The notes beneath the pieces are model-generated. The model saw nothing but the letters and a program-made list of their open reading frames with translations, had not been told where the DNA came from and ran no database searches. From Halovivax gelatinilyticus (GTDB taxonomy: Archaea; Halobacteriota; Halobacteria; Halobacteriales; Natrialbaceae): 64,000 nt of DNA. The stretch is taken from assembly GCF_024300625.1 (NCBI RefSeq), contig NZ_CP101322.1:1253992-1317991 (forward strand). The letters run 5' to 3'. Every line of letters begins with the position of its first letter. Within the stretch, counting starts at the first letter, position 1. The position numbers and the translations under genes are program-made. Of the stretch, positions 6,755 through 9,963 are shown one piece after another.

Positions 6755-8379
6755 GCGCGAAAGCGGCGTTCAAAAAGTGGTGGCGCATCGGCCTGTTGCT
6801 GGTGCTCATCAGCGTCGCGCTCTTCGCGCTGTTCGCGCCGGGCGGCGTGATGGGCGGCGGCGACGACATCGAGGACCTCGAACTCGACGAGAACGACTCG
6901 GTCGAGTCGGGGCCGTCCTGGCACAACCTCGTCTTCGGACTGGGGTTAGACGGCGGCGCCCGGATCAGCGCACCGCCCGTCGGGATGACCGCAGAAGGAC
7001 TCGATCCGACGACCGATTCACCGAGCACCGACCTCAGATCGGCGCTGATCGACGAACTCGGCCTGGCGCCGGAGGACGCCCACGTCCGAACCGACGATCA
7101 GGGCACCTACTCCGCGGAGGTGTTCGACGGCAACGTCACCCACGAGGAGATGGCCGCGGCGTTATCGACCGTCGACGGCGTCGATATCACGGCCGACGAC
7201 GTCGACGACGGCGTCACCGAGGAGACGCGCGCGGAGATGCTCACCGTCATCGAGAGCAAGTTGAACGAGGCGGGGCTGGCCGGCGGCCAGGCGTTCGACA
7301 CCGAGACGCTCGGCGGCCAGCACTTCATCGTCTCGGAAGCGCCCGCGATGGGCACCCAGGAGCTGCGAACGCTCCTCGAAGAACGAGGGACCGTCCGAAT
7401 CGAAGCCCACTACCCGGACCCAGACGGCGACGGCATGACGAACGAGACGGTCCTCGAGCAGCAACACTTCACGAATATTGGACAGGCCGAGTGGAGCGGT
7501 GAACGGAACCAGTACGAAGTGTTGGTTCACGTCGTCGACGAGCGAGCGTCCGAGTACCAGGAGCGGATGAACGAGATCGGGTTCACCAGCGAGGGCGTCG
7601 GCCAGTGCGACCCGCGCTACGGTGACGAGGGGGCCAATCCGGACGAGTGGGAAGATCAGTACTGTCTCGTCACGATCGCCGAGGGTGACGTAATCAGTGC
7701 CCACTCGATGGGAGAGGATCTCGCGCCGGGTATGCAAAGCGGCGAGTGGGCGAACGACCCGACGTTCGTGATGACCTCCCAGGATCGATCGGAAGCGGAA
7801 CTCCTCTCGCTCAACCTCCGCGCCGGGACGCTGACCGCGCCGCTCGACTTCGGGAACGCCCAGGTGTTCAGCGTCGAGCCGGCGCTCGCCGAGCAGTTCA
7901 AGAATTACTCGCTGTTGATCGGCATCCTGGCGATCTTGAGCGTCAGCGGGATGGTCTTCGTGCGCTATCGCGACCCCCGCGTCGCCGCGCCGATGATCCT
8001 CACGGCGATGGCCGAGGTCGTCATCCTGCTCGGCTTCGCCGCCGCCGTCGAGATGCCGCTCGATCTGGCCCACGTCGCCGGCTTCATCGCCGTCGTCGGT
8101 ACCGGGGTGGACGACCTGATCATCATCGCCGACGAGGTGATGAACGAAGGCGACGTCGACCAGCGGCGGGTGTTCGACTCCAGGTTCCGCAAGGCGTTCT
8201 GGATCATCGGCGCCGCCGCGGCGACGACGATCATCGCCATGTCGCCGCTGGCCGTAATGAGCCTGGGCGACCTGCAGGGCTTCGCCATCGTCACCATCCT
8301 GGGCGTGCTCATCGGCGTGTTCATCACCCGACCCGCCTACGGCGACATCCTGCGCAAGCTGATGACCCGCCCGGAATAA
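6751..8379 (+). CDS. secD: Protein-export membrane protein SecD
   Basis: A 542-residue SecD. An N-terminal helix (about 10-30) is followed by GLGLDGGARI, the archaeal form of the SecD D1 motif, a large acidic external domain, and a C-terminal membrane block with VGTGVDDLIIIADEVMNEG and AAATTIIAMSPLAVM. It acts with SecF in the Sec export pathway, which matters here because the window encodes several very large secreted proteases. It starts inside the last codons of secF. The following 390 nt lack a gene until 8769. Confidence 0.96.
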   Translation: MSAKAAFKKWWRIGLLLVLISVALFALFAPGGVMGGGDDIEDLELDENDSVESGPSWHNLVFGLGLDGGARISAPPVGMTAEGLDPTTDSPSTDLRSALIDELGLAPEDAHVRTDDQGTYSAEVFDGNVTHEEMAAALSTVDGVDITADDVDDGVTEETRAEMLTVIESKLNEAGLAGGQAFDTETLGGQHFIVSEAPAMGTQELRTLLEERGTVRIEAHYPDPDGDGMTNETVLEQQHFTNIGQAEWSGERNQYEVLVHVVDERASEYQERMNEIGFTSEGVGQCDPRYGDEGANPDEWEDQYCLVTIAEGDVISAHSMGEDLAPGMQSGEWANDPTFVMTSQDRSEAELLSLNLRAGTLTAPLDFGNAQVFSVEPALAEQFKNYSLLIGILAILSVSGMVFVRYRDPRVAAPMILTAMAEVVILLGFAAAVEMPLDLAHVAGFIAVVGTGVDDLIIIADEVMNEGDVDQRRVFDSRFRKAFWIIGAAAATTIIAMSPLAVMSLGDLQGFAIVTILGVLIGVFITRPAYGDILRKLMTRPE

Positions 8380-8633
8380 GGGCGATCGGCTCGGTCGCAG
8401 GTTCTGACAGCGGTCGTGGATTGGGGAGTTCGTCATATTCGTCGCACCCACCACGTCGATCGAGCGACGAGCTCGAACCGACGAGAGACCAGGGACCGGG
8501 AACGTACGACTCATCGAGCGAAAGTCGTCGCGGACTAACTCGTAGCCAGTTGGCACGAACGAGCGAGATAGTGTGGATTTCTAACCATAGATACGTCTCC
8601 AGATAATTTTCTAAATTTATTTCCTCCCTCAAT

Positions 8634-8644
8634 AGATATAATAC
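8634..8644 (+). promoter_or_regulatory. Putative TATA box for the folded leader and zinc-finger operon
   Basis: GATATAATAC sits in a short AT-rich island (8588-8643) inside GC-rich DNA. An archaeal start site is expected about 25 nt downstream, near 8665, which is just where the folded element begins. Confidence 0.5.
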
Positions 8645-8666
8645 GCTGCGATCCGTCATCTCGCGT

Positions 8667-8759
8667 GGAAGCCACTCGCTCTGGCGTCCCAGAGTCGGCA
8701 GAAATGCCCCGGGTGCCATAACACCCGGGTCGTGGCTTCCGAAACCCGCAGACGGGTTT
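8667..8759 (+). ncRNA. Candidate structured RNA or structured 5' leader
   Basis: Four perfect helices are packed in 93 nt. An outer 9-bp stem (8667-8675 with 8732-8740) encloses two hairpins: 8679-8684/8689-8694 with a 4-nt loop and 8708-8715/8722-8729 (8 bp, 6-nt loop), giving a three-way junction. A fourth 7-bp hairpin with a CAGA loop follows (8742-8748/8753-8759). It ends 9 nt before the ATG at 8769 and begins where a TATA box at 8634-8644 would place the transcript start. It could be a riboswitch-like leader, an independent small RNA, or the palindromic remnant of an IS200/IS605-type end. It matches no RNA family that I recognise. Confidence 0.55.
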
Positions 8760-8768
8760 ACATCAGCC

Positions 8769-9119
8769 ATGACACGCTACAAACCAGACCACCATAAACC
8801 CCGCGCACAGCCCGCATACCTTCGATACACGGTTACTCGAGAGTGTCCCGATTCGAGACTACCCAGTACCGGACAGCCAGTGGCCTACACAGCCACGAGC
8901 CCCACCGAAGACCGCCGCTTCGTCAGCCCGGCCAGTCCGGTCGAGCCCTATCGGTACGGAACCGTCTCGCGGGATCACTACCCGCCGTGTCCGCACTGCA
9001 CCGAGCCGGTGATCACGATTCGGACGCTCGGCCCAGACCAGCACACCGCCGATCCGTGCGGCTGCGAGATCGACGTTCACACGGTCGCCCATTTCCTGCG
9101 AGGGCCCGGCGATGAGTAA
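8769..9119 (+). CDS. Small zinc-finger protein (CPHC...CGC)
   Basis: A 116-residue protein. The N-terminal 75 residues are polar and rich in Pro and Tyr; the C-terminus carries a CPHC pair and, about 20 residues later, a PCGCEI motif, together a likely four-Cys zinc site. The following gene at 9112 overlaps it by 8 nt and encodes a shorter protein with the same finger, so the pair looks like a duplication within one operon. Haloarchaea are known to encode many small CPxC zinc-finger proteins, mostly of unknown regulatory role. The ATG lies immediately behind the folded RNA element. Confidence 0.65.
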   Translation: MTRYKPDHHKPRAQPAYLRYTVTRECPDSRLPSTGQPVAYTATSPTEDRRFVSPASPVEPYRYGTVSRDHYPPCPHCTEPVITIRTLGPDQHTADPCGCEIDVHTVAHFLRGPGDE

Positions 9120-9279
9120 CGCACCGGACCCCGCGGCACCCGACCCCGAAAACTGCCCGTTTCCGCTGTGTCCGTTCTGTGAGACGCCGGTCGTCAGCGT
9201 CACGTCGACGGGGCCACACACCCACTCGGCCAGTCCCTGCGGTTGTGGCCTGACGCTCGCGGACGTCCAGGAGATGTAG
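9112..9279 (+). CDS. 55-residue zinc-finger micro-protein
   Basis: A short gene overlapping the end of the previous one by 8 nt (ATG at 9112 within GATGAGTAA). The product starts MSNAPDPAAPDPENCPF and has CPFC, then an 18-residue spacer rich in Thr/Ser/His and SPCGCGL, i.e. the same four-Cys layout as its upstream neighbour. The two fingers align (CPxC, G.x.H.A.PCGC), which supports both as real. The gene is too short for default length cut-offs and may be missed by gene callers. No function is known. Confidence 0.65.
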   Translation: MSNAPDPAAPDPENCPFPLCPFCETPVVSVTSTGPHTHSASPCGCGLTLADVQEM

Positions 9280-9422: not shown

Positions 9423-9749
9423 ATGTCCCGAACCACCGCCACCATCCCCGACGATCTCACCGACCTCATGGAGGGTGCCGTTCGAGCCGGTGTCTTCGAG
9501 AACAAAAGCGACGCGATTCGTCACGTCCTCCGGGAGTACTTTCAGGAGAATCGGGAGGCCCGGATCGCCGCCGCGGTGTCGCTGTACGATGACGGGGATA
9601 TCACGCTCGGAACGGCCGCCCGTCTCGCCGGCCTCAACCGGTTCGAAATGCGCGACATATTGCGCGAGGAAGGGGTAGACCTCCGGTTCGGTCCCGAAGA
9701 TATGGCCGCCGTGCGAGACGAGATCGACGTCGCTCGGAATCTCGAGTGA
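9423..9749 (+). CDS. UPF0175-like antitoxin with ribbon-helix-helix N-terminus
   Basis: A 108-residue protein. The N-terminus (RTTATIPDDLTDLMEGAV, then KSDAIRHVLREYF) is a ribbon-helix-helix DNA-binding domain like those of CopG/VapB antitoxins. The C-terminal half (AVSLYDDGDITLGTAARLAGLNRFEMRDILREEGV) is the UPF0175 helix-turn-helix module. UPF0175 proteins commonly sit before PIN-domain proteins, and here the next start codon overlaps the stop (TGATG at 9747-9751). The partner is truncated, so the antitoxin may now be an orphan. Confidence 0.85.
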   Translation: MSRTTATIPDDLTDLMEGAVRAGVFENKSDAIRHVLREYFQENREARIAAAVSLYDDGDITLGTAARLAGLNRFEMRDILREEGVDLRFGPEDMAAVRDEIDVARNLE

Positions 9750-9963
9750 TGGAGGCGCCACAACGCGCAACGGTTCTCGATACCTCCGTAGTATCTAACT
9801 TCGCGCACGTCGATCACCTCGAACTGATCGCCACGCTACCGCGACCGGTGGTCGTCCCAGCCGTCCGAGACGAACTCGAACGGGGCATCCGGTGATCCGT
9901 CAGGAAATACGCTCCAACGAAGTAATCGAGCACCTGATCGACGGCGATCCAACCGACGAGTAA
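9749..9963 (+). pseudogene. Decayed PIN-domain toxin-like gene
   Basis: The frame starting at 9749 begins ATVLDTSVVSNFAHVDHLELI, a typical PIN start with the first catalytic Asp, but stops at 9893-9895 after only 48 residues; PIN partners of UPF0175 proteins usually have about 150-170. Just past the stop, a shifted frame (from 9892 to the TAA at 9961) reads VIRQEIRSNEVIEHLI, which resembles the C-terminal helix of such toxins. The simplest reading is an internal deletion of about 300 bp with loss of most of the nuclease, including the remaining catalytic acids. Confidence 0.6.

Follow-up and report, generated by a model that had tools for sequence, protein, structure and literature searches.

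A large family of structured 5' leader RNAs precedes zinc-finger microprotein genes in haloarchaea and may act through start-codon pairing

RESULTS AND DISCUSSION

A folded element that directly precedes two small zinc-finger open reading frames (ORFs) was analyzed in a 64,000-nucleotide stretch of Halovivax gelatinilyticus DNA (NZ_CP101322.1, positions 1,253,992 to 1,317,991), referred to here as the window. This element is apparently a member of a large and so far undescribed haloarchaeal family of structured 5' leader RNAs, and the odds are slightly better than even (about 0.55) that it is a cis-acting, riboswitch-like translational leader in which the start codon can be hidden by an alternative pairing. 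No earlier description of the family was found in a literature search confined to mostly open-access papers, and Rfam gave no family at the gathering threshold in the window, with a chance-level match alone at a relaxed threshold; the leader was therefore not assigned to a known RNA family.

Architecture of the leader and its promoter

A first-pass annotation of the window, made from the letters of the DNA only, had described an outer 9-bp stem, two perfect hairpins, and a further 7-bp hairpin, all of which were recovered in place (Table 1), as was their overall span of 93 nt (8667-8759), ending 9 nt short of the ATG at 8769. The outer stem, P1, encloses P3 and P4 and sometimes P2; P5 comes next and the start codon after P5. 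The three-way junction proposed at the same time needed revision for the window copy, which has a four-way junction owing to an extra hairpin (P3) that had been missed, but it does hold for most copies, which are three-way and lack P2. The base C8708 is the first base of P4 and may be claimed by either P3 or P4. An additional hairpin, P6, lies within ORF1 codons 7 to 12 in most Natrialbaceae copies, and the window copy belongs to a subclass without it. The predicted energy of the leader was -55.5 kcal/mol, compared to -33.7 ± 3.6 kcal/mol for 200 dinucleotide shuffles (z = -6.0), none of which equaled it, in agreement with the earlier remark that such helices are rare in random DNA. For the whole stretch first reported (8630-8769), the z value of the fold was -5.4.

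TABLE 1 Coordinates of the leader, its helices, and the adjoining promoter and ORFs in the window
Feature	Position	Strand	Remarks
Promoter element CAATAGATATAATA (family consensus CCAGTARNTATAW)	8630-8643	+	TATA box 8637-8643; same spacing to P1 in 168/197 distinct copies
Structured leader, predicted transcription start (8667) through start codon	8667-8771	+	Fold z = -6.0; covariance-model match, 101 bits
Outer stem P1, 9 bp, GGAAGCCAC / GTGGCTTCC	8667-8675 / 8732-8740	+	Sequence pairing
P1 5' strand (strand A), GGAAGCCAC	8667-8675	+	Partner of 8732-8740; P1 positions 6, 8, and 9 show compensatory changes
P2 hairpin CTCTGG/CCAGAG	8679-8694	+	Perfect; optional and variable; missing from most copies
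P3 hairpin GGCA-GAAA-UGCC	8697-8708	+	GAAA loop; whole-pair swaps keep pairing among 189 nonredundant leaders
P4 hairpin CCCGGGTG/CACCCGGG	8708-8729	+	Perfect; GGGTG/CACCC core invariant; loop 8716-8721 hypervariable
P1 3' strand (strand B), CGTGGCTTCC	8731-8740	+	Pairs with A; alternatively, 8731-8737 with 8765-8771
P5 hairpin AAACCCG/CGGGTTT, 7 bp	8742-8759	+	Would cap the alternative start-codon hairpin; P5 in 153/176 leaders
Strand C, AGCCATG	8765-8771	+	Start codon and the bases before it; can pair with strand B
ORF1, 116 aa	8769-9119	+	N terminus MTRYKPDHHKPRAQPAY conserved; C-terminal CPxC/PCGC zinc-finger motif
ORF2, 55-aa CPxC...PCGC zinc-ribbon microprotein	9112-9279	+	Overlaps the end of ORF1; ORF2 family dN/dS, 0.22

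The TATA box begins 30 nt upstream of the first G of P1, and the leader starts 27 to 30 nt past the box. A TATA-to-start distance of approximately 30 nt is near the usual archaeal value, and the predicted transcript would therefore begin with P1, such that the first base of P1 (8667) is the probable transcription start, as the first-pass annotation had proposed. When upstream sequences were compared, the motif CCAGTARNTATAW was present 36 nt upstream of P1 in 168 of 197 distinct copies. In one family of copies (f17; L331 and L332), a dyad such as GTACTACATAGTAC was located between a TATA-like box and P1 and resembles a repressor operator.

Family size and distribution

Sixteen matches within the same genome were returned by blastn, and a covariance model trained on 15 of them raised the count to 25 copies in H. 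gelatinilyticus, with 32, 23, 28, and 29 copies in four congeners (23 to 32 per genome in the genus). The model also found the leader in 48 of 119 relatives and, among 392 genomes drawn from the order, in 78, and matches were present on ten haloarchaeal plasmids; exact matches to the core were found in Halovivax, Halopiger, Natrinema, Natrialba, Halostagnicola, Natronobiforma, Natronorubrum, and Natronoglomus. Outside the Natrialbaceae, the scores were weak (E values of 1e-9 to 1e-3, from a shortened calibration), as scores drop with distance for a model trained on copies from its own genome, and these other-family matches are assigned on anatomy: most share the arrangement of the leader and stand directly before a start codon. 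Pattern and blastn searches of viral contigs and phages gave no match, and a viral or phage origin was accordingly set aside.

Conservation and covariation of the stems

Covariation analysis, which had been named as a check on the first description, revealed compensatory changes in P1, P3, P4, P5, and P6. With an alignment of 39 diverse leaders that was not fitted to the model, RNAalifold recovered P1 and P4 unaided. In these two stems, 96.9% of cells were paired, and both-sided changes were seen in 21 cells, compared to 2.9 in shuffles and at most 8 in slid controls of the same alignment. All six P3 pairs were formed in 75% of 189 nonredundant leaders, compared to 23% when the 3' strands were shuffled, and whole pairs were swapped between copies (GGGGCA/TGCCCC, GGGACA/TGTCCC, GGGTAC/GTACCC, and GGACAT/ATGTCC). 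For P5, a helix of at least 4 bp near the segment start was present in 153 of 176 leaders, versus 48% in shuffles, with many compensated forms. Since the shuffle tests are inflated by sequence relatedness, the slid controls and the other-family copies are the safer evidence. An H-type pseudoknot (CGCA/TGCG) around P3 showed a modest excess that is confounded by the same relatedness (56 helices of at least 4 bp versus 37.5 ± 5 in shuffles).

The conserved RNA structure extends past the start codon into the coding region. In P6, an exchange of A-U and G-C at positions 22 and 35 changes Arg8/Leu12 jointly to Gly8/Pro12, so that one base-pair exchange alters two amino acids; two shuffle measures for P6 were at chance and three were not, and every slid control was far lower. 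The strand of the functional RNA can also be read from changes in P1: at positions 6 and 7, one-sided changes of C to U opposite G occurred in 19 cells, and because these give G-U wobbles on the plus strand but would leave A-C mismatches on its complement, the plus strand is the functional one.

Zinc-finger ORFs downstream of the leader

ORF1, usually followed by a zinc-finger ORF2, was found downstream of the leader in nearly all of 100 loci. ORF1 is 116 aa long in the window and commonly 35 to 50 aa elsewhere, with a variable tail and a conserved N terminus (for example, MIAYILPGYKRPARQ and MIAYTLPRQKGLARS). In most cases, the end of ORF1 meets the start of ORF2, an ATGA overlap being present at 70 of 125 ORF1 ends, and the ribbon of ORF2 is of the CPxC...PCGC or CYRC...CPDC type. 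The openness of the ORF1 tail by itself was not above chance, and the case for translation is therefore made by the ATGA overlaps, the dN/dS values, and the conserved N terminus, from which we infer that ORF1 is translated. Synonymous changes were fewer in ORF1 codons 1 to 18 (0.118) than in the ORF1 tail or ORF2 (0.22 to 0.27), as expected for codons that also form RNA structure.

Searches of Pfam, PDB, PHROGs, and NCBIfam with ORF2 returned weak or chance-level matches only, and assignment to a known family was dropped. Like the haloarchaeal zinc-finger microproteins HVO_0758 (PMC10716476) and the HVO_2142 family, ORF2 is very small and carries paired CPxC-type motifs; however, HVO_0758 is leaderless (PMC10716476), and ORF2 matches the HVO_2142 family only weakly (best E value, 0.008). 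The leader family gives access to a group of zinc-finger microproteins most of which lack annotation. In other families, a different Cys-rich ORF follows the leader, such as a SWIM-like finger (Pfam E value of 0.001, just under the cut-off), which indicates that the tie of the leader to zinc-finger-like genes outlasts replacement of the protein. Several Halopiger copies are exceptions that have no recognizable ORF2. Five loci of Halopiger djelfimassiliensis (L059, L084, L106, L108, and L125) and one of Natrinema pallidum (L122) have near-identical leaders and the ORF1 start MIAYPLPRHKRLARHSV without a recognizable zinc-finger ORF2, and they are perhaps a separate subfamily that has recently spread or is decaying. 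At L134 and related Halostagnicola loci, ORF2 resembles a HalOD1 output domain (E value of 1.7e-5, just under the Pfam cut-off) and not a zinc ribbon.

Predicted alternative pairing at the start codon

The bases of the start region (GAAGCCAUG in many copies and AGCCAUG in the window) repeat strand A of P1 and could pair with strand B (CGUGGCUUCC). A B:C helix of at least 6 bp could be formed in 183 of 226 leaders, compared to 16% when the pre-AUG bases were shuffled, and when B and C were taken from different families, 6 bp was reached in only 14 to 20%. All 22 other-family copies tested, and most of those from Natrialbaceae, retain a start region that is complementary to B, with B:C amounting to only 5 to 6 bp in many copies of the window's own genus. 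Strand C follows changes in A and B in f17 (B, GGTCTTC; C, GAAGACC), where the helix stops just short of the AUG, in L325 (B, CGTGTCT; C, AGACATG), and in L275, a flank-defined ortholog of L248 (A, GGAAACC; B, GGTTTCC; C, AAACC), the triple covariation of A, B, and C representing few independent events. Forcing B:C carried a median predicted cost of 7.1 kcal/mol (6.9 kcal/mol for the window copy and 0 for L131 and L325), and in the predicted forced state P3 and P4 remained intact, with P5 as a cap. From the B:C pairing, its covariation, its predicted cost, and the preservation of P3 and P4, we infer a leader with two states, one open (A:B) and one closed (B:C).

In the proposed mechanism, the RNA would start at the first base of P1 and act in cis on its own mRNA. 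By default, P1 (A:B) would close the junction with P3 and P4 and leave the start codon free, such that ORF1 would be translated and, via coupling at the overlapping start (ATGA in most copies), the zinc-finger ORF2 as well. In the alternative state, strand B would leave A and pair with C, and the resulting P5-capped hairpin would hide the translation start. A signal favoring one state would set all copies together, and candidates for it include the encoded zinc-finger proteins, zinc or another metal, and salt. Both the switching and the direction of control are putative features of this model. The clear preference for P1 in most copies speaks against a switch; since P1 is favored and would also form first during transcription, something must actively open it.

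The same preference for the P1 state, strong in many copies, together with an AUG that is predicted to be unpaired between P5 and P6, would suit a passive leader, the fold of which merely stabilizes the mRNA or aids ribosome entry at a start that lacks a Shine-Dalgarno sequence. A leader of that kind would have no need of the complementarity between B and the start region that is so widely kept, and we regard it as unlikely.

Many zinc ribbons bind nucleic acid, and the association of the leader with zinc-finger genes persists from family to family even where the protein type differs. Both points would be in keeping with a protein-binding operator like those of ribosomal-protein leaders, in which the zinc-ribbon protein or another factor binds the RNA and represses or protects the mRNA, the start-region GAAGCC being a second binding site rather than a partner of P1 strand B. 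This explanation appears doubtful, in that C tracks changes of the P1 strands in several lineages, which pairing explains directly, and in that ORF2 matches no known RNA-binding family and no candidate binding protein was identified. Ribosomal-protein leaders, including the halobacterial S15 leader (PMC7247131), are likewise structured archaeal 5' leaders attached to one gene class, with possible feedback by the product, but the genes that follow the present family encode small zinc-finger or Cys-rich microproteins and not ribosomal proteins.

The reading as a riboswitch-like leader, already suggested by the first-pass annotation, gains support from the compensatory stem changes, from homologs that are transcription units, and from the plausible alternative pairing of the start codon. 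A conserved structured core is present in the 5' untranslated region (P1, P3, and P4, with compensatory changes). AUG masking controls translation in Haloferax (PMC8241225), and that study, from 2021, names just one archaeal riboswitch as experimentally determined, the fluoride riboswitch. Like translational riboswitches (the fluoride riboswitch of Thermococcus kodakarensis and synthetic theophylline-dependent AUG masking in Haloferax volcanii [PMC8241225]), the family combines a shared folded core with a predicted alternative strand pairing and a start codon that would be hidden in one state. In contrast to them, it precedes zinc-finger microprotein genes at up to 32 sites per genome, its structure runs into the coding region, and a short upstream ORF is coupled to the main gene. 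As a more tentative possibility, the family may constitute a new archaeal riboswitch class. One core, amplified to approximately 30 loci per genome, would respond to a shared signal (possibly zinc) and adjust translation of the whole complement of zinc-finger microproteins by exchanging the P1 5' strand for the start codon, each of these genes being coupled to a leader-peptide ORF. Hardly any natural RNA switches have been documented in archaea, and the family would offer hundreds of natural examples, as well as a directly testable start-codon switching mechanism in organisms that do not strictly need a Shine-Dalgarno sequence.

Genomic setting and spread of the copies

The window copy is located on the 3.70-Mb chromosome, in an islet between secD (which ends at 8379) and truA that contains the structured element, the two small zinc-finger ORFs, and a ribbon-helix-helix/UPF0175 gene. 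The islet (8380 to approximately 10000, from secD to a small membrane gene before truA) has no counterpart at the same place in four congeners, where secD, the small membrane gene, and truA follow one another with no leader copy. The absence of the window copy from this place indicates that leader copies are gained and lost. Within the islet, at 9423-9895, the UPF0175/ribbon-helix-helix gene is followed by an ORF with a PIN-type toxin-like start (MEAPQRATVLDTSVVSNF) that stops after 49 aa, and the two are perhaps a decayed toxin-antitoxin pair.

Multiple, dispersed copies and the absence of the window copy at the same place in the congeners are features that a transposon end or miniature inverted-repeat transposable element (MITE) would also show, and a degenerate IS200/IS605 or MITE end had been put forward as the alternative for this locus. 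The homologs are indeed multicopy but prove to be transcription units, each with coupled ORFs and a promoter at a fixed place, and not transposon ends. Similarity between paralogs runs from the promoter to near the stop of ORF2, with no shared ends beyond, so that what is repeated is the entire transcription unit of promoter, leader, ORF1, and ORF2. The flanking genes are ordinary and varied: among 95 flanking ORFs were two DDE transposases and one Cas12f-like protein, no enrichment, and neither a transposase link nor element ends emerged from these ORFs and the paralog comparison. The family thus resembles IS200/IS605 ends and MITEs in being multicopy with hairpins but differs from them in showing no transposase association among the flanking ORFs and no shared ends and in having a promoter, coupled genes, and compensatory evolution, by which even divergent copies retain the fold. 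On these grounds, we consider a mobile-element origin scarcely credible. The simplest account of the spread would be duplication and recombination of whole transcription units. In one congener, two copies (L198 and L200; G001:C1, about 2400251 and 2401394) lie 1.1 kb apart and differ in their P4 loops; a 1957-nt identical blastn match between them reflects overlapping loci and is alone no proof of a perfect tandem duplication.

The hypervariable P4 loop

A compact and very stable fold with its own promoter, in many copies that differ in the P4 loop, might be expected of a processed small RNA that acts in trans and to which the downstream ORFs are incidental. This is very improbable, however, as conservation does not stop at the start codon but reaches into P6 and ORF1, purifying selection acts on the ORFs, and the variable loop has no complementarity to its own mRNA or flanks, the only targets tested.

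The loop itself (6 to 7 nt) showed a mean divergence of 0.34 between close orthologs, compared to 0.07 to 0.09 for the rest of the leader; across all copies, it thus evolves approximately four times faster than the remaining leader. The idea that the loop guides the RNA to its own mRNA or to the flanks was rejected, complementarity not being in excess. In 6 of 44 differing pairs, the loop resembled its own reverse complement (1.0 expected; 0 of 500 shuffles), and between orthologs it is sometimes inverted in place, as in L206 (GACCTAG) versus L248 (CTAGGTC). Conversion between paralogs may be involved where the loop has been replaced as a block. Small inversions associated with palindromes have been described in the chloroplast trnH-psbA spacer (PMC2903610), and the variability of the P4 loop is likely to reflect loop flipping together with a lack of constraint.
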